Part shown: positions 7,798-16,413 of the stretch, in pieces
Numbering within the stretch: the stretch's first letter is position 1
Layout: every line of letters starts with the position of its first letter
Assembly: GCA_902762455.1 (NCBI GenBank)
Contig: CACWOG010000005.1
Coordinates: 1-34,811 of the forward strand
From: an uncultured Bacteroidia bacterium
GTDB taxonomy: Bacteria > Bacteroidota > Bacteroidia > Bacteroidales > ML635J-15
Length of the DNA stretch: 34,811 nt
Reading direction: 5' to 3'
Made by a program: the position numbers and the translations under genes
The notes under the pieces: generated by a model
The model's input: the letters and a program-made list of their open reading frames with translations, nothing else
Told to the model about the DNA's origin: nothing
The model's database searches: none

Positions 7798-7815
7798 CAC
7801 TATATATTTTTCAGG

Positions 7816-10800
7816 ATGAACAAGACTCTAGGCACAGCGGAACTACAGATTGACGAACAGAACAGGCAGATTATCAAGAGCCTGATTGAACGAAATAAGA
7901 TTATCGAAGAGAACAATCTGCCACCCGACAATATGATTCCCGGGTACAAACTCGATTCAAACGGAAAATTCTTGAGTGTCAACATAAAAATGGCTGAACT
8001 GCTGGGCTATTCCTCAACCGATGAGCTTATGTCGGCAATAGTCGAAAAAAAATATCTGATACTTAAGTCTGACCTTACGACTACACTTGAAAATTCCGAC
8101 TATGTCATCGACAAGCCTTTGTATTTGCGCACCCGAAGCGATTCGTACCTGACACTTAAGAAGTCCGTCATAAAACTCAAGGAGGACGGTCGTATCCGCT
8201 ACTATGGGCTGGTTACTCGTATGGATTCGCACAAGAATGTTGTACACGAGGACGCAATATTCTGGAATGCCGTAAAGCAGATGTACGGCGGAATGAAGTC
8301 GGGTATAGTTATATGCGACAGCGACGGCTATATATTGTACGAAAATCCTGCCATAAGACATTTGCTTGGTTACGATGACCTTGCCGAACTGCCAAGTCCG
8401 CATATTACTGGCTATGTGACAGAAGGTTGCCAAAAGAAAATGAAAGAATCGCTGGGCGAATTGTTCGACAAGCAAGTCCAAATTCCAAGCATTACCTATT
8501 CGCTCATTAAAAACGACGGAAACACCATCGAGGTTGAAATTTACTCGTCAATGATTGCAATCGAGGATAGGAAATTGTGCCTTTCTGTAATTTCCGGTTT
8601 CGGCAAGGACGAAAATATGCGCAATATGGAGTCGTCTGTGCAGTACCGCAAGACTCTCAACCTGCTTTCTGAAATATACATACTGGTTACCGAATCGGGT
8701 GGAATATGCGACCTTAACGAATCGGCAGTCAACCTGTGGGGCTGGAATTACAACCGCTACCTTACAAAGTCGATTTTCGAACTTGGCAGTTTCCGTGTCG
8801 CCGACTCAAAGCGACGGCTCGACTACTTGTGCGACGACGGTGCAAGCCGATACACATTTGTCGCAAAGGAAACTATATATGGTGAACTGTTGTTGTCGGC
8901 AAGGATGCATTCGGTAGTCGTCAACGACAAAAGGTGCATTGCCGTAGTGATGGAAAGCCGGCACGAGATACAGCAGATAAAAGAAAAGCTTGAACAGGAG
9001 TATCACAACAACTTTGTAATGTTCGAGAACTCTGTTTGCGGAATAATTCACCTTAACGGCAAGGAAATCATCAACGCCAACACACAGGCCTACAGTCTGC
9101 TGAAAATATCTTACGACATCAGGGGCGAACAGTTTTCAAGCATTTTCCCCGATACCCGACGCAAAAAGCGCCATATTGTAATCACTGCCGCAAACCGTAT
9201 GGAGGAAGTGTTCAACTACGAATTTTCCACCAAGGGCAAGCGCACACTTCTCGAAGTTCACCTGTTCGACGTTGACAAGGAAAACACTTTCTGCTATTTT
9301 ATTGACACGACCCAGCACAAGTCGGCTCCGTTGTCGCTTGCCAACTTGTCGTCGCGCTACCGTGCAATAGTGGAGCAGTCGCCCTGCGGTGTGCTTATCG
9401 GCGACAAGAACGGCGACATAATAGATGTAAGCGGTCGCTTCTGCGAAATGATAAGGATGCCGGCTGTCGAGATTCTTGGAAAGAACATATCCGCACTTTT
9501 CACCGAAAGCAGTATCAAGGTAAAGCCCCTCGACTATGTGCGCGTTGATGCCGGCGAAATAATAAGCGCCGAGCGCGAACTTAAATGCGGTGACGGTACT
9601 ATCAAGATTGTCGAGATGTATTCCAGTGTTATTTCCACCGATATGTATCAGGCTGTAGTACTGGATATTACGCCAAGAAAGATATACGAAAACCAGATGC
9701 TTGACTATCGCCGTCAGGTACACGATATGGATATGGAGAAAGCCCATTTCCTGAAAATGTCGAAGGATATCACTGCAATATTCACTGCCGATGCCAATAT
9801 CAAGGACATTTTTGTGGGGGAAAGTTCTCCGTTCTACAGGTATTTCAATAGCGAAAAGGAGTTTATTGAGCGTTTCCTGAGCTACATATCGCGCAAGGAC
9901 TACGATATGATGCTAAAGCAAGGCATTGCAAACGCAATTGCTGGAAACGAAAACAAGGAGCAGAAAGTCGAAATTGTTATCGGTGGCACCTTGCTTATCC
10001 TCGAAGTAAGGTTTATGCTAATCGAAAACGGTGTGCTGGTGGTGATTTCCGATGTCACCGAAAGGGAACGGATAATAACCGAACTCAACCGTGCACTGAA
10101 GAAATCGGAGGAGAACGAAAAGTTGCAGGCTGCGTTCCTGAGCAACCTTTCGCACGAACTGCGAACACCAATGAACGGCGTAATAGGTTTTGCCGACATT
10201 CTGCTCGAAGGCGAGGACAATCCGCAAAAGCAGGAATATCTGAGGATAATACTCAACTCGTCGTACCAGTTGCTCAGTGTGCTGTCGGATATTATTGAAA
10301 TGTCGAAGCTTGAGGCTGGCGTGGTGCAGGCAAAGTCCGAAATTGTCAGCGTGAAGAAAATCATCGGTGATGTCTGTGCTTTGATGCGTACCGAACATAG
10401 TGTCACCGACAACAATGTGCAGATTATGAATCTTGCACAGGAACGCAAGGAAACGCATATCATTTCGGACAGTACAAAACTTAAACAAATAATTACCAAC
10501 CTGATTAGCAATGCAATAAAGTTCACGAAGAACGGCAAGGTGGAGGTCGATTTCAGCGAAACCGACGAAAAGGTCTGCATAACTGTTCGCGACAACGGCG
10601 TTGGAATTTCCAAGCGGGACATCGACCATATTTTCGACCGCTTCTTCCAGACAAACAACGCGAAAGCCGCCACAAAGGGTGCAGGACTTGGACTTGCCAT
10701 CGTCAAGTCGTATGTTGATATGCTTCAGGGTACTATACGGGTCGAATCGGAGGAAGGCAAGGGCTCTTGCTTCTATGTTGAATTGCCAAACAACTATTGA
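7816..10800 (+). CDS. Multi-PAS sensor histidine kinase
   Basis: 994 residues from the ATG at 7816. No signal peptide or membrane helix is evident, so it is probably cytoplasmic. Six PAS-like units are readable at about 30-135, 150-265, 275-380, 395-500, 512-625 and 645-750 (for example SGIVICDSDGYILYENPAI and SPCGVLIGDKNGDIIDVSG). A HisKA domain follows with FLSNLSHELRTPMN (phospho-acceptor His780). The HATPase_c domain has its N box at Asn899, DNGVGI at 926-931, and the GAGLGLAIV lid. There is no receiver domain and no response regulator nearby, so the phosphate target is unknown. The next gene, a receptor adenylate cyclase, starts 1 nt after its stop, which argues that the two act in one pathway. 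Confidence 0.93.
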   Translation: MNKTLGTAELQIDEQNRQIIKSLIERNKIIEENNLPPDNMIPGYKLDSNGKFLSVNIKMAELLGYSSTDELMSAIVEKKYLILKSDLTTTLENSDYVIDKPLYLRTRSDSYLTLKKSVIKLKEDGRIRYYGLVTRMDSHKNVVHEDAIFWNAVKQMYGGMKSGIVICDSDGYILYENPAIRHLLGYDDLAELPSPHITGYVTEGCQKKMKESLGELFDKQVQIPSITYSLIKNDGNTIEVEIYSSMIAIEDRKLCLSVISGFGKDENMRNMESSVQYRKTLNLLSEIYILVTESGGICDLNESAVNLWGWNYNRYLTKSIFELGSFRVADSKRRLDYLCDDGASRYTFVAKETIYGELLLSARMHSVVVNDKRCIAVVMESRHEIQQIKEKLEQEYHNNFVMFENSVCGIIHLNGKEIINANTQAYSLLKISYDIRGEQFSSIFPDTRRKKRHIVITAANRMEEVFNYEFSTKGKRTLLEVHLFDVDKENTFCYFIDTTQHKSAPLSLANLSSRYRAIVEQSPCGVLIGDKNGDIIDVSGRFCEMIRMPAVEILGKNISALFTESSIKVKPLDYVRVDAGEIISAERELKCGDGTIKIVEMYSSVISTDMYQAVVLDITPRKIYENQMLDYRRQVHDMDMEKAHFLKMSKDITAIFTADANIKDIFVGESSPFYRYFNSEKEFIERFLSYISRKDYDMMLKQGIANAIAGNENKEQKVEIVIGGTLLILEVRFMLIENGVLVVISDVTERERIITELNRALKKSEENEKLQAAFLSNLSHELRTPMNGVIGFADILLEGEDNPQKQEYLRIILNSSYQLLSVLSDIIEMSKLEAGVVQAKSEIVSVKKIIGDVCALMRTEHSVTDNNVQIMNLAQERKETHIISDSTKLKQIITNLISNAIKFTKNGKVEVDFSETDEKVCITVRDNGVGISKRDIDHIFDRFFQTNNAKAATKGAGLGLAIVKSYVDMLQGTIRVESEEGKGSCFYVELPNNY

Positions 10801-10801
10801 T

Positions 10802-13800
10802 ATGGTGAAAAAATTATTTTTAATCGCATTTTTATTGTTGCCGTTTGCTACAGTCTTTGCCCAGAACTCAGGCTACGGCATTCCGCAGATAAGGAACTTC
10901 GGAACCGCCGACTACAGGCAGGAAAGCCAGAATTTCAGCGTCGTGCAGGACAAGAACTCGCTTATGTACTTTGGCAACACCAATGGCATAATGGAGTACG
11001 ACAACGAAAAGTGGACAATCGTGAAAGTCCCCGGTCGTCCCAAACTTGCCGTAAGCGACAAGAACGAAATTTACTTTGGTGCCTACAATATGTTCGGTAA
11101 GGTGAACTACAAGAACGGGCACATTGATGTCGTTGAGTTTGAGAACAATACAGGGACAGAGTTCGGTCAGATAACAAAGCTTGCCGTTTCGGGCGACGAT
11201 GTGTATTTTACATCGAGTGGAAAACTGTTTATGTACTCCGATTCCACCATCAGGAAAATTGCCGACAATGGTTTCTTCCGTCTGCTTAGCCTTGATACTG
11301 CCGTGTATGTGCAGAAGAAATTTGCTCCGCTGAAACGCCTTAACCACGGCCGACAGGAAGACGATGCCTTCTGTTCGTTGGTCGATTCTATCGAGGTGGC
11401 AGATATGATATGTGCCAGCGATGGCTGTATAATTCTGCGCGACGAAATAAGGTCTTGCTTTTATAAATATTCAGTAGCAGACGGACTTTCTCCTTTTTTT
11501 ACCGACCTTGACAGGTACATAAACAAGAACGGCTATTCGTGCATGAAAAGTCTTAGCGATGGCGCTTTTGTCGTGGGAACAAATTCTGGGGGCCTTGTTT
11601 CGTTCGATGAGGATGGCAAGTACAGGTTTGTGCTTAGTTCGTCCAATGGTCTGAAGGACAATACAATAAACGACATTTGCATTGACAATCAGAACAAGGT
11701 TTGGGCTGTTACCGAAAACGGAATTTGTCTTCTCGAGACCAATTCGGAACTGTCGTACTTCAATGCCTACAACGGAATAAGGGGTACGGTCCTTTCGGTA
11801 AGGCGGCACGAGGGACGGCTGTATGTCGGTACCACGTCGGGATTGTTCCAGTACAGCAGATGGGAAATGCCCGGTGCTGCCATGTACAGTTTTATTGGCA
11901 TAAGGGGAATAATGAACAACTGCTGGCAGCTTTGCACCTACGAAGACAAATTGTACGCTGTGACTTTGGACGGTCTTTTCCTTGTCGGCGACAGAAGGGC
12001 CGAGAAAGTTCTCGACGGTGCCTTCAACTCGATGAAACCTATGACTATCGGTGGCGAAGAATTGCTTTTGATTGGCGGACATTCGGGCTTGACGGTAGCC
12101 AGAGTTACCAATGGAAAATTAAAGGAAATAGGCAGGCTGAAGAATATGAGGCATAGGGTGCGTACAATTGCTCCCGACAATGACGGAAGCCTTTGGCTTG
12201 GTACCGACCGCGACGGCTTGTTCAGGGTGGAATTCGGCGATTCGCTCGACTTTGACGCTATGGTGTCGGGCTATGGCTCTTCCGATGGACTTCCGCCCGA
12301 CTACGACTGGGTTGACGTGTATTTAACAAAGAGATTCGGACCTGTGTTTTCCACTTCGTTGGGACTCTTCCTTTACGACAATGCCGAGAAAAAGTTCAAG
12401 ATGGATTCGGTACATTTTGGCACTACCGCCATATATGGTACTCTCAGCGAGGATTCGTGCGGAAATATATGGTACAACTGTTCGTACCCAGGTGCCTACG
12501 AGCGCGAGGTCGGTGTGATAAGGTTCGATGCCAATGGCGGCTTTACGCGTATGACTTCGTCGTTCTGCCAGATGAGGGAGTCGGTGGTCGAAAACATTTA
12601 CCCCGAAAAGGCCGATGTGGTTTGGTTCGGTACTTCAGATGCTCTCATAAAATACAATGCTAACGGGAAAATGCATCAGGCAGCCGACAGTACCTTCAAA
12701 TGTATGATTAGGAAGGTTGCAGTGGCTAACGACTCGATAATATACGTCTTCGACAACGACTATTCGCAGGACGTTGACTTTATGCACAAAATCAGGTATC
12801 TCGACAGAAAAATCAGGTTCGATGTGGCTGGTCTGGCTTACAATACCTTCGGCGATACCGAGTACCAGTTCAAGCTCGAAGGCCTCGACGACGACTGGTC
12901 GGAATGGACTACCGACTCGTACAAGGAGTACATAAGCCTTTCGGAAGGCGACTACAAGTTTATGGTGCGTTCGCGCAACGGCTACGGACAAATCAGCAAT
13001 ACCGCCGAATTCAGATTTGAGGTTACACCGCCATATTATCGTTCAATAATTGCCTATATCCTTTATTTCTTGAGTTTTGTTGTTATAATCGTGCTTATTG
13101 TCGCGTGGAGGAACATTGTTCATGCCAAGGAAAAGCTCAAGCTCGAGAGGATTGTGGAAATGCGTACCAACGAACTTGTTATGCAGAAGGAGCAGACCGA
13201 AAAGCTTGTAAAGAAGCTGCTTCCGCAGAATACAGTGGACGAGATTCAGAAAAATGGTAACGCCAAATCGAAGAAATACGATATGGTTACAGTGTTGTTT
13301 TCTGACATTCAAGGATTTACCAAGATTGCAGCGGTTACAAACCCCGAAGAGCTGATAAAATATCTCAACGAATTGTTTGTCACTTTCGACAATATCATTG
13401 CAAAATATAATATCGAGAAGATAAAGACTATTGGCGATGCCTATATGTGTGCTGGAGGTATGCCCAACAACGATGCTACAAATCCCGTGGAGGTTGTGCT
13501 GGCTGGTATGGAGATGCAAAGGGCATTGACCGATTTCAACAATAAGCACGAGCTTAAGATGAATATGCGCCTTGGAATACATACTGGTCCTGTTGTGGCA
13601 GGTGTGGTTGGTGCGCAAAAGATTGAGTACGACATCTGGGGCGACACGGTGAACATTGCAAGCCGTATGGAGTCGCACGGCGAGATTGGTCGTGTCAACA
13701 TTTCGGAAGAGACCTATCGTCACGTAAAGGAATTTTTCAATTGCGAAAACCGTGGCTTGATGGATGTAAAGAACAAGGGCGAGATGGAGATGTACTACGT

Positions 13801-14455
13801 GAACGGAATCCTTGAGGAGCTTTCCGAAAACGGCGACGGCATCACTCCAAACCATCTGTTCAATGTGCGTAAGCAAAGCTTGAATTTCTCGCTTATTCAG
13901 GAGGAAATTCTTGAACAGATGCAGCGCGACCTTCCCAAGAACCTTTATTATCACAACCTCAAGCACACAACCGATGCCATTTATCGTGTTACCGACATTG
14001 GCACCAAGGAGAATGTTTCGGAGGAAGACTTGTTGCTTCTGCGTTGTGCCGCATTGTTCCACGACAGCGGATTTATGGCAAGCTACGACAACAACGAGGA
14101 AATCGGTGCAAGGCTGGCGCATCAGACGCTTGCAAGGTACAAGTTCTCACGCGAGCAGATTGATATTGTAAAAGGCATAATCAACGCCACCAAGGTTCCG
14201 CAGAATCCACACAACTTGCTCGAGGAAATTATGTGCGATGCCGACCTCGACTATCTTGGTCGTCCCGACTTCATACCTATTTCGCAGAACCTGTTCCGCG
14301 AGCTTTACGAACGTGGAAAGATAGATTCTATCGAGCAGTGGAACAAGATGCAGTACAAGTTCATCACCCAGCACCACTACTTTACCGAAACCGCCAAACG
14401 TAGCGGTGAACCCGGCAAACAGCAGGTGCTGAAGGAATTGAAGGAGTTGATTTAG
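10802..14455 (+). CDS. Receptor adenylate cyclase: periplasmic propeller, Y_Y_Y, class III cyclase and HD domain
   Basis: 1217 residues from the ATG at 10802; the same frame is open further upstream but only inside the kinase gene. Signal peptide 1-21 (ending FAQ). Residues about 30-650 form a two-component-regulator-type beta propeller. About 660-740 is a Y_Y_Y domain (YQFKLEGLDDDWSEWT), followed by one membrane helix near 746-770 and a charged linker or coiled coil to about 820. The class III cyclase domain (about 825-1010) has metal ligands Asp835 (FSDIQGF) and Asp879, adenine-selecting Lys875 (KIKTIGD) and Asp944 (YDIWGD), and Asn951/Arg955, so it should make cAMP rather than cGMP. The C-terminal HD domain (about 1030-1217) has YHNLKH (His1051, His1055), HD at 1087-1088 and CDAD (Asp1146), resembling cyclic-nucleotide phosphodiesterases. 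The periplasmic half is that of hybrid two-component polysaccharide sensors, with the output replaced by cyclase and HD. Confidence 0.92.
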   Translation: MVKKLFLIAFLLLPFATVFAQNSGYGIPQIRNFGTADYRQESQNFSVVQDKNSLMYFGNTNGIMEYDNEKWTIVKVPGRPKLAVSDKNEIYFGAYNMFGKVNYKNGHIDVVEFENNTGTEFGQITKLAVSGDDVYFTSSGKLFMYSDSTIRKIADNGFFRLLSLDTAVYVQKKFAPLKRLNHGRQEDDAFCSLVDSIEVADMICASDGCIILRDEIRSCFYKYSVADGLSPFFTDLDRYINKNGYSCMKSLSDGAFVVGTNSGGLVSFDEDGKYRFVLSSSNGLKDNTINDICIDNQNKVWAVTENGICLLETNSELSYFNAYNGIRGTVLSVRRHEGRLYVGTTSGLFQYSRWEMPGAAMYSFIGIRGIMNNCWQLCTYEDKLYAVTLDGLFLVGDRRAEKVLDGAFNSMKPMTIGGEELLLIGGHSGLTVARVTNGKLKEIGRLKNMRHRVRTIAPDNDGSLWLGTDRDGLFRVEFGDSLDFDAMVSGYGSSDGLPPDYDWVDVYLTKRFGPVFSTSLGLFLYDNAEKKFKMDSVHFGTTAIYGTLSEDSCGNIWYNCSYPGAYEREVGVIRFDANGGFTRMTSSFCQMRESVVENIYPEKADVVWFGTSDALIKYNANGKMHQAADSTFKCMIRKVAVANDSIIYVFDNDYSQDVDFMHKIRYLDRKIRFDVAGLAYNTFGDTEYQFKLEGLDDDWSEWTTDSYKEYISLSEGDYKFMVRSRNGYGQISNTAEFRFEVTPPYYRSIIAYILYFLSFVVIIVLIVAWRNIVHAKEKLKLERIVEMRTNELVMQKEQTEKLVKKLLPQNTVDEIQKNGNAKSKKYDMVTVLFSDIQGFTKIAAVTNPEELIKYLNELFVTFDNIIAKYNIEKIKTIGDAYMCAGGMPNNDATNPVEVVLAGMEMQRALTDFNNKHELKMNMRLGIHTGPVVAGVVGAQKIEYDIWGDTVNIASRMESHGEIGRVNISEETYRHVKEFFNCENRGLMDVKNKGEMEMYYVNGILEELSENGDGITPNHLFNVRKQSLNFSLIQEEILEQMQRDLPKNLYYHNLKHTTDAIYRVTDIGTKENVSEEDLLLLRCAALFHDSGFMASYDNNEEIGARLAHQTLARYKFSREQIDIVKGIINATKVPQNPHNLLEEIMCDADLDYLGRPDFIPISQNLFRELYERGKIDSIEQWNKMQYKFITQHHYFTETAKRSGEPGKQQVLKELKELI

Positions 14456-14977: not shown

Positions 14978-14985
14978 TAATTTTG
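14978..14985 (+). promoter_or_regulatory. -7 box for the hydrolase-kinase gene
   Basis: TAATTTTG matches TAnnTTTG and ends 18 nt before the ATG at 15004. No clear -33 element is seen at 19 nt. Confidence 0.5.
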
Positions 14986-15003
14986 TGGACTAATAAAAAA
15001 TAT

Positions 15004-16413
15004 ATGGCAAACAAATATATCGACACATCAATTCTTGACAAGGCGATGCATTTTGCAATTGATGCACACGCCAATACCGAACGCCGTGGCAAGGGATTCC
15101 CATACTCGATACACCTAATGGAAGCCGTAGAAATTGCCGCAACAATAACCTCCGATCAGGAAATACTTGCCGCTACAGCATTGCACGACACAATTGAAGA
15201 TACTGATGTCTCATTGGAGCAGCTGCGCGAGGAATTTGGCGACAGGATTGCTGCTTTGGTCGAAGCCGAAAGCGACAAGTTTGCAAACGGCTTTTCGGAG
15301 CGCGACAGTTGGACCGACCGCAAGAAGGCCGGATTGGTACGCCTTGCCAATTCTCCATACGATGCCAAGGTTGTGGCTATGGGCGACAAACTCTCGAATA
15401 TGCGTGCCATCGCCCGCGACTACGAGCGTATTGGCGATGAACTTTGGAAAATTTTCCATGCGCCAAACGGCAAATCCGACCACGAATGGCGCTACCGTGG
15501 ACTGGCTGTGGCTTTGTTCGATCTCGCCGGAACACCTGCGTACCGCGAATTTATCACTTTGCTCGAAAAGACTTTCGGACAGAAGGACTATGGTACGCCC
15601 GAAAAAATCGACATAAACGACTACATTCGCAGTGGCGAAGGCTTCAATGCCGAAAGCTACAACCATAAGGGCGGACGCACAATGATAAAGCTGTACTCCG
15701 AATCGGTGTCGCCCGAAATGCCGTTGCGCGAACTTCGCACCGCAATGAATGTTTTCCGAATGGGACTTCTTACGCCTATGCCAGGACGCTTTGTCACCGA
15801 TGGCAAGAGGTTTGGTTGCGAGTTTAGTCGTGTTGTAGATAAGAAGTCGTTTGCAAGGGCAATATCCGAGAATCCCGACAGTATGAAAAGGTATGCCGCC
15901 GAATTTGCCCGTATGTGCAAGCAGTTGCATTCTACGGTCTGCAATCCTGCTGTATTCCCGTCGGCTGCCGATATGTCTTGCAAGGCAGTTGAAAATGCAG
16001 AAATTTTTACCGACGACGAGAAGAAAAAGGTTCTCGATTTTGTGAAAAGCGTACCGACAGCAACTACTTGTCTCCACGGCGACCTGCATATTGGCAATAT
16101 TCTCGACTCGAGTTTTGGCAACCTATGGATAGATCTTGCCGACTTCAGCTATGGCAATCCGTTGTTCGACTTTGGAATGATGTATCTTGTCTGCCGATGC
16201 AATCCCGATGACTTGACAAAGAAGCTATACCATATCGACAATGAGGCAATGCTTAGGTTCTGGAAGTTATTTGCCTGCGAATATTTTGGTGCCGATACTC
16301 CCGAAAAGTTTGCCGAAGTAGAAAATAAACTTCGCCCGTTTGCCGCACTGAAGATGCTGTATTTCAGAATTAAGGGCTACGACAATTTCATAAGGGAAAG
16401 CTTGCTAGGATAA
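15004..16413 (+). CDS. SpoT/Mesh1-like HD hydrolase fused to an aminoglycoside-phosphotransferase-like kinase
   Basis: 469 residues. An in-frame TTG at 14983 overlaps the -7 box, so the ATG at 15004 is preferred. Residues 1-190 are a (p)ppGpp-hydrolase-type HD domain with all expected metal and catalytic positions: His37 (YSIHL), His61-Asp62 and Glu65-Asp66 in LHDTIEDTDVSLEQL, and Asp128 in MGDKLSNMRA. No synthetase domain follows. Instead residues about 205-469 are an APH/choline-kinase-like domain with the catalytic loop HGDLHIGN (358-365, Asp360) and metal-binding IDLADFSYGNP (Asp377 or Asp380), like the family named TIGR02172 from Fibrobacter. A hydrolase that removes pyrophosphate from alarmones joined to a small-molecule kinase is unusual. 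The kinase substrate is unknown. Confidence 0.85.
   Translation: MANKYIDTSILDKAMHFAIDAHANTERRGKGFPYSIHLMEAVEIAATITSDQEILAATALHDTIEDTDVSLEQLREEFGDRIAALVEAESDKFANGFSERDSWTDRKKAGLVRLANSPYDAKVVAMGDKLSNMRAIARDYERIGDELWKIFHAPNGKSDHEWRYRGLAVALFDLAGTPAYREFITLLEKTFGQKDYGTPEKIDINDYIRSGEGFNAESYNHKGGRTMIKLYSESVSPEMPLRELRTAMNVFRMGLLTPMPGRFVTDGKRFGCEFSRVVDKKSFARAISENPDSMKRYAAEFARMCKQLHSTVCNPAVFPSAADMSCKAVENAEIFTDDEKKKVLDFVKSVPTATTCLHGDLHIGNILDSSFGNLWIDLADFSYGNPLFDFGMMYLVCRCNPDDLTKKLYHIDNEAMLRFWKLFACEYFGADTPEKFAEVENKLRPFAALKMLYFRIKGYDNFIRESLLG

Follow-up and report, generated by a model that had tools for sequence, protein, structure and literature searches.

Can a single bacterial receptor both make and destroy cyclic AMP (cAMP)? 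The question is raised by a gene in a stretch of 34,811 nucleotides, here called the window, from an uncultured rumen Bacteroidia bacterium of the Bacteroidales lineage ML635J-15 (assembly GCA_902762455.1, contig CACWOG010000005.1). The gene starts with an ATG at 10802 on the + strand, stops at 14453–14455 and forms a single open reading frame (ORF) of 1217 residues. It is likely to encode a one-protein cAMP receptor-switch, in which a class III cyclase would make cAMP and a C-terminal HD domain would degrade it. An earlier note, made from the sequence alone, had proposed that one polypeptide joins a periplasmic sensor, an adenylate cyclase and a phosphodiesterase-like HD domain; the ORF, Pfam, hydropathy and the recurrence of the layout in the family bear this out.

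Layout of the cyclase–HD protein

From N- to C-terminus, Pfam and hydropathy indicate a signal peptide, an ectodomain of two propellers and a Y_Y_Y domain, one transmembrane (TM) helix, a coiled coil, a class III cyclase and the HD domain. The sensor is of the kind found in hybrid two-component systems (HTCS), and the HD domain resembles a phosphodiesterase (PDE). The parts are as follows.

10802–14455, + strand: complete gene for HTCS-type sensor, TM helix, class III cyclase and PDE-like HD domain, 1217 residues; ORF and Pfam scan, layout common to the family
10802–10861, + strand: signal peptide, residues 1–20, MVKKLFLIAFLLLPFATVFA-Q
10862–12667, + strand: periplasmic beta-propeller part, residues ~21–622
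12839–13024, + strand: Y_Y_Y domain, residues 680–741
13037–13105, + strand: single TM helix, residues ~746–768, from hydropathy
13115–13264, + strand: coiled coil and cyclase-transducer-like segment (...KLVKKLLPQNTVDEIQ...), residues ~772–821, from sequence; alignments with membrane guanylyl cyclases reach from residue 780
13265–13807, + strand: class III cyclase domain, residues 822–1002
13913–14452, + strand: class I PDE-like HD domain, residues ~1038–1217

Scanned with the full protein, Pfam gives Reg_prop at 1.9e-13, Y_Y_Y at 2.6e-10 and Guanylate_cyc (PF00211) at 3.5e-61 over residues 822–1002. The HD match has an E-value of 1.1e-4 within the full protein and of 6.9e-6, above the cut-off, when the isolated domain is the query. 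Hydrophobic 19-mers occur at two places only, residue 1 (signal peptide) and residue 746 (TM helix). A hybrid two-component system was considered and rejected; the Pfam matches in the chain are to a cyclase and an HD domain, not to a histidine kinase, receiver or DNA-binding output.

Comparison of the HD domain with class I phosphodiesterases

The earlier note had read the HD domain as phosphodiesterase-like rather than generic, a view now supported by the fold match, by the alignment of profiles, by the Gln and Phe at nucleobase positions and by the linkage of HD genes to cyclase genes. A model of the domain, built from an alignment of 90 relatives (predicted local distance difference test, pLDDT, 96.7), matches PDE10A with Z 18.0 and a root-mean-square deviation (rmsd) of 2.7 Å, 193 of 215 residues being aligned (VIA). 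PDE7A, PDE5 and the choanoflagellate RhoPDE follow closely on fold score. Foldseek with the same model returned six matches at E < 1e-3, every one a PDE5 entry; the PDB is rich in PDE entries, so that a long list of PDE matches means little, and it is score and coverage that count. The model has the fold of a class I PDE catalytic domain, with which other HD families stay compatible, since the generic HD hydrolase 2pq7 reaches Z 17.5.

Profile comparison points the same way. With hhalign, the HD profile aligns with the catalytic domains of four human PDEs at E 1.9e-6 over 159 columns, and at 4.1e-6 when the family-only alignment is used. The human set includes PDE10A and PDE4D, identical to the PDB letter for letter, together with PDE5A and PDE9A. 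A RelA/SpoT-type HD domain from the same window, entered as a single sequence and hence a weaker control, gave E 0.24 against these PDEs. The alignment pairs YHNLKH with YHNNIH, ALFHD with SAIHD, IINATK with IVLATD, CDADLD with HCADLS and MQYKFI with SQVGFI; within the same block, as printed, RELYERG is paired with EEFFRQG. Profile and predicted structure make the HD domain a compact relative of the eukaryotic class I cyclic-nucleotide phosphodiesterases.

Active-site residues of the HD domain

The positions that correspond to the active site of class I PDEs are these.

13952–13966, + strand: HNLKH, with H1051 at the general-acid position of YHNxxH and H1055 as metal ligand; conserved in cyclase–HD proteins
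14060–14065, + strand: H1087-D1088, the HD dyad
14237–14245, + strand: D1146-A-D1148, with D1148 on the PDE metal Asp in the profile alignment
14351–14362, + strand: Q1184 and F1187, at the purine-binding Gln and clamp Phe of class I PDEs

H1051, H1087, D1088 and D1146 are invariant in 30 family sequences. Among 100 distinct cyclase–HD proteins, H1051 is kept in all 100, H1055 in 98 and the HD dyad in 96; position 1184 is likewise Gln in 96. The earlier note had named H1051, the HD dyad and D1146 as the site. H1051 and the dyad stand, but D1146, though invariant, is probably not the distal metal Asp: D1148 is the more likely ligand, because CDADLD aligns with HCADLS in such a way that D1148 falls on the PDE metal Asp, and because D1148, not D1146, is gone in relatives whose HD dyad is also gone. 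The spacing H1051-x3-H1055-x32-D1088 fits the motif H(X)3H(X)25-35D/E (PMC4222275). On profile alignment only, Q1184 and F1187 occupy the places of the purine-binding Gln and clamp Phe, whose roles in class I PDEs have been described (PMC5617230).

The cyclase and the sensor

The earlier note had also listed six residues of a complete class III cyclase, and all are present and invariant in 30 family sequences: D835 and D879 for metal, K875 and D944 for adenine, N951 and R955 for the transition state. K875/D944 is an ATP-type base pair. Together with the PF00211 match, these residues predict a complete class III adenylate cyclase that would synthesise cAMP from ATP. It is expected to act as a two-site homodimer, the established form of single-domain class III cyclases. 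The PDB matches include bacterial membrane adenylate cyclases and the ANP receptor guanylyl cyclase, which likewise carry one cyclase domain per chain behind a coiled coil and a TM helix; unlike the window protein, they have no attached phosphodiesterase.

The ectodomain model (pLDDT 88.3) is closest to BT4663 (Z 29.7, rmsd 4.3 over 663 residues, 16% identity, the Y_Y_Y domain lying inside the alignment), followed by BT4673 and BT3049, all above other propeller proteins. Pfam, the model and the structure comparison thus agree on two seven-bladed propellers and a Y_Y_Y domain, and the reading of the sensor as HTCS-type is supported. BT4663 (a heparin/heparan sulphate sensor), BT4673 and BT3049 share with the window protein the two propellers and Y_Y_Y domain followed by a TM helix, but their output is a histidine kinase/response regulator/AraC whereas that of the window protein is a cyclase–HD module. 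By analogy with BT4663 the ligand is probably a small glycan fragment; identity of only 16% to BT4663 allows no closer guess.

A sequence of events can be proposed on this basis. A periplasmic ligand would be bound by the two-propeller/Y_Y_Y ectodomain, and the signal would pass through the single TM helix and the coiled coil to the homodimeric cyclase, which would make 3',5'-cAMP from ATP. The C-terminal HD domain would hydrolyse 3',5'-cAMP to AMP with bound metal. Between them the two domains may shape a transient or local pulse of cAMP, and the sensor may tip the balance towards one of the two activities.

Spread of the cyclase–HD fusion

The HD domain is found in 30 of 31 family genomes, one copy each. 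Of the family loci retrieved, 29 begin away from a contig end, and in all of these it shares an ORF with the cyclase. Among 84,980 species genomes scanned, at least 587 relatives were found; the best 80 comprise 79 cyclase–HD fusions and one locus cut by a contig end, a sample chosen as nearest by similarity and therefore biased to the fused form. Since the fusion recurs in the family and across Bacteroidota, it is not a chance event. Its N-termini vary: some are large propeller ectodomains, others short cytosolic coiled coils or single-TM forms, and a kinase-AAA-GAF form also occurs. Among the carriers of the fusion is Marinifilum, a relative that can be cultured (L051, L052, L054, L058, L061). 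The window protein is one member of a very large cyclase–HD group, which the earlier note had missed, and because the group is so large, turnover of cAMP seems widespread in Bacteroidota, not peculiar to this receptor. No bacterial cyclase–HD phosphodiesterase is described in the open-access literature searched.

Both active sites are intact in 77 of the 100 distinct proteins; 17 keep only the HD site and five only the cyclase site, none has lost both, and one falls in an alignment gap. Such a distribution speaks for each domain being an enzyme that is useful in its own right.

In a sample of the phylum, HD relatives occur in 135 of 395 genomes, either alone, fused to PycTM or to YitT/DUF2179, or behind TIR-TolB-TPR. 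Loci L142 and L143 encode the TIR - TolB/FlgO-like - TPR - HD proteins (TIR, TolB and receiver labels were assigned by eye from the sequence rather than by profile scan); 59 bp separate the gene in L142 from a receiver-adenylate cyclase gene, and ~10.5 kb separate that in L143 from a cyclase. At L115, L121, L124 and L126 the HD domain is in frame with YitT membrane/DUF2179 proteins, and in the two cases measured a class III cyclase lies within 2 kb. Viral relatives amount to four weak or moderate matches; a 6.1-kb putative viral contig (L219, IMGVR_UViG_3300012006_000604) encodes an HD relative with 35% identity.

Unfused HD domains and the residue at position 1184

Among HD domains not fused to a cyclase, 14 of the 18 with Gln at position 1184 have a class III cyclase within 11 kb, a limit chosen after the data were seen, against 0.24 expected by chance; 10 have one within 3 kb. 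The corresponding count for other residues at 1184 is one in 27, taking cyclases among the matches listed, so that weak cyclases may be missed, mainly in non-Gln genomes. The cyclases linked to Gln-type HD domains carry K/D or K/T, of the ATP type. Atypical base residues are found in the single cyclase near a non-Gln standalone HD domain (H/G) and in a cyclase facing an HD–PycTM gene (Q/V). No class III cyclase was found in 18 of 80 HD-bearing genomes searched, and the wider HD family therefore has another use too.

Fusions of the HD family to PycTM (PF18967), a Pycsar effector, are spread across Bacteroidota (L141:868-2142, L132:1474-2697 and ~27 further loci), and 28 of 29 such proteins have N, T or S at the purine Gln position. 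At L196 (G179:C48:6500-10500) the HD–PycTM gene faces a membrane class III cyclase with Q/V for K/D, possibly a cyclic-pyrimidine system with its own HD domain. A tentative generalisation would place the Bacteroidota HD family within the class I PDE fold, as a bacterial branch divided into two subfamilies by base specificity. Members with Gln, which are fused to adenylate cyclases or encoded near them, would degrade cAMP, and those with Asn, Thr or Ser, which are fused to PycTM, would degrade cyclic pyrimidines and so give the effector its own off-switch; the window protein would then be one of many sensor-controlled make-and-break cAMP modules.

Points against the proposed receptor-switch, and other explanations

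Several observations weigh against a receptor that both makes and degrades cAMP. No activity is known for any family member. The HD domain has no match to PF00233 (PDEase_I), to which 55 of 90 relatives match weakly, at best with 1.3e-4. The pattern PS00126, HD[LIVMFY]xHx[AG]x2[NQ]x[LIVMFY] (PMC5617230), is not matched either: the window reads HDSGFMASYDNN, with F1091 in place of the His of HDxxH, a His present in 39 of the 100 cyclase–HD relatives. Position 1098 is Asn in the window and His in most relatives. Gene linkage to a cyclase can mislead, as in S. meliloti, where SpdA, encoded beside CyaD1, hydrolyses 2',3'-cyclic nucleoside monophosphates (PMC4222275). The division between Gln and other residues at 1184 is one deep split with three changes on the tree, so the correlation of Gln with linkage is not phylogenetically independent; with three changes and no informative pairs, no independent-contrast support was obtainable. 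Lastly, the Arg that binds the cAMP phosphate is missing from both CRP-like proteins of the genus. CRP was rejected as the cAMP receptor, the phosphate cassette of the two proteins having Y/H or L/H where Glu/Arg would stand, and canonical cAMP-CRP was not found in the genus; L164 (G000:C18) and its relatives L165–L170 are CRP/FNR-like regulators of the genus without the canonical cAMP-binding Glu/Arg.

On PF00233 and PS00126 the HD domain formally falls outside the class I PDE family, though it is class I PDE-like. With PDEase_I members (PDE10A, PDE5, PDE4, PDE9, RhoPDE) it shares the fold (Z ~17–18), YHNxxH, HD, the metal Asp, the purine Gln and the clamp Phe; it differs in having neither the second His of HDxxH nor the two large inserts, and in falling below the PF00233 cut-off. 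A true PDEase_I elsewhere in the phylum was sought and rejected, none exceeding the PF00233 cut-off in 296 Bacteroidota genomes, where three of five sub-threshold matches are the HD family itself. No class II PDE (PF02112) exceeds its cut-off in family genomes. For lack of hits over these cut-offs, the HD domain is the best PDE candidate among PF00233, PF02112 and itself, no search having been made for class III metallophosphoesterase PDEs (CpdA type).

The alternative that survives best, although unlikely, is that the HD domain is an active hydrolase of another nucleotide, a YpgQ/YedJ-like enzyme for deoxynucleoside triphosphates or other substrates, placed beside the cyclase, for example, to clear a product or second messenger. 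The best PDB profile matches are indeed generic HD hydrolases, 2pq7 (1e-9) and YedJ (7e-7), with BH2835 at 1.8e-5 and PDE5 only at 0.012. The structure prediction and family comparison proposed earlier gave no alignment to a non-nucleotide HD family, yet 2pq7 ties with PDE10A on fold score. These generic matches span only the core HD helices (profile 16–142), whereas the PDE alignment continues to the Gln/Phe helix; the rmsd is worse for 2pq7 (4.6, against 2.7 Å), and repeated fusion or linkage to cyclases and to a Pycsar effector domain points to cyclic mononucleotides.

Less probable still is a non-catalytic or product-sensing regulatory HD domain that binds cAMP or AMP and feeds back on the cyclase. 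At L064, L089, L108 and L110 two cyclase–HD genes lie 3–4 kb apart, and in the downstream one the cyclase is intact but the HD domain has decayed; these few relatives retain the domain without the HD dyad, so it could persist without catalysis. Against this, the window protein and nearly all relatives keep the full ligand set, both sites are intact in most fusions, the proteins that keep HD while the cyclase decays argue for HD catalysis, and the domain is also found alone. A part in a Pycsar-like defence system that makes or destroys cyclic pyrimidines is very improbable: PADLOC PycC models match the cyclase (9e-22) and HD relatives are fused to PycTM, but PycC models match class III cyclases generally, K875/D944 is an ATP pair and Q1184 of purine type, PycTM occurs in none of the 31 family genomes, no effector was found among the scanned neighbours, and the gene, with its HTCS-kind sensor, is kept across the family, as a defence island would not be.

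Genomic context

One neighbour was retained.

7813–10800, + strand: multi-PAS histidine kinase without receiver, from Pfam; its stop lies 1 nt before the cyclase–HD gene

The kinase gene lies upstream in the closest relatives and not in more distant ones, and is a probable operon partner in close relatives only; gene neighbours were rejected as pointers to a regulon. Elsewhere in the window, 14983–16413 (+ strand) encodes a protein that joins a RelA/SpoT-type HD_4 domain to an APH-like kinase domain of TIGR02172. The cyclase–HD gene encodes the only class III cyclase found in the source genome, a draft of 2.86 Mb that is 80% complete. The nearest named records are Bacteroidales metagenome-assembled genomes from rumen, reticulum and red deer.

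Known parallels and significance

One paper attributes class I phosphodiesterases to eukaryotes and those of class III to bacteria (PMC8115329). In plants, CAPE (COMBINED AC with PDE) joins a class III cyclase to a class I PDE, and both activities have been shown for Marchantia MpCAPE (PMC5159850); CAPE-like fusions arose independently in non-photosynthetic stramenopiles (PMC8115329). The likely receptor-switch of the window is best read as a bacterial counterpart of plant CAPE. CAPE of Marchantia and other streptophytes likewise combines in one chain a class III adenylyl cyclase with a domain of class I PDE type, both thought to be cytoplasmic. The window cyclase fits this description; the HD domain is class I-like but lies outside PF00233 and PS00126. 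CAPE differs in being eukaryotic, with the PDE N-terminal and the cyclase C-terminal, the reverse of the window order, and in having no periplasmic sensor and a full-size canonical class I PDE, where the HD domain of the window has ~180–215 residues and is only PDE-like.

GGDEF-EAL proteins provide a bacterial parallel for cyclic di-GMP (c-di-GMP) (PMC10745434). As proposed for the window protein, they and RelA/SpoT proteins combine synthesis and degradation of a nucleotide messenger in one bacterial polypeptide, but the messenger is c-di-GMP or (p)ppGpp and the enzymes are unrelated to the cyclase and HD domain described here.

If the proposal is true, the split between Gln and Asn/Thr/Ser would offer a simple handle on purine versus pyrimidine cyclic nucleotides, and a single purified protein would allow direct tests of cAMP signalling in a phylum that is prominent in gut and rumen. 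With a conserved class I-like PDE of bacterial origin attached to their adenylate cyclases, Bacteroidota would possess a built-in off-switch for cAMP.

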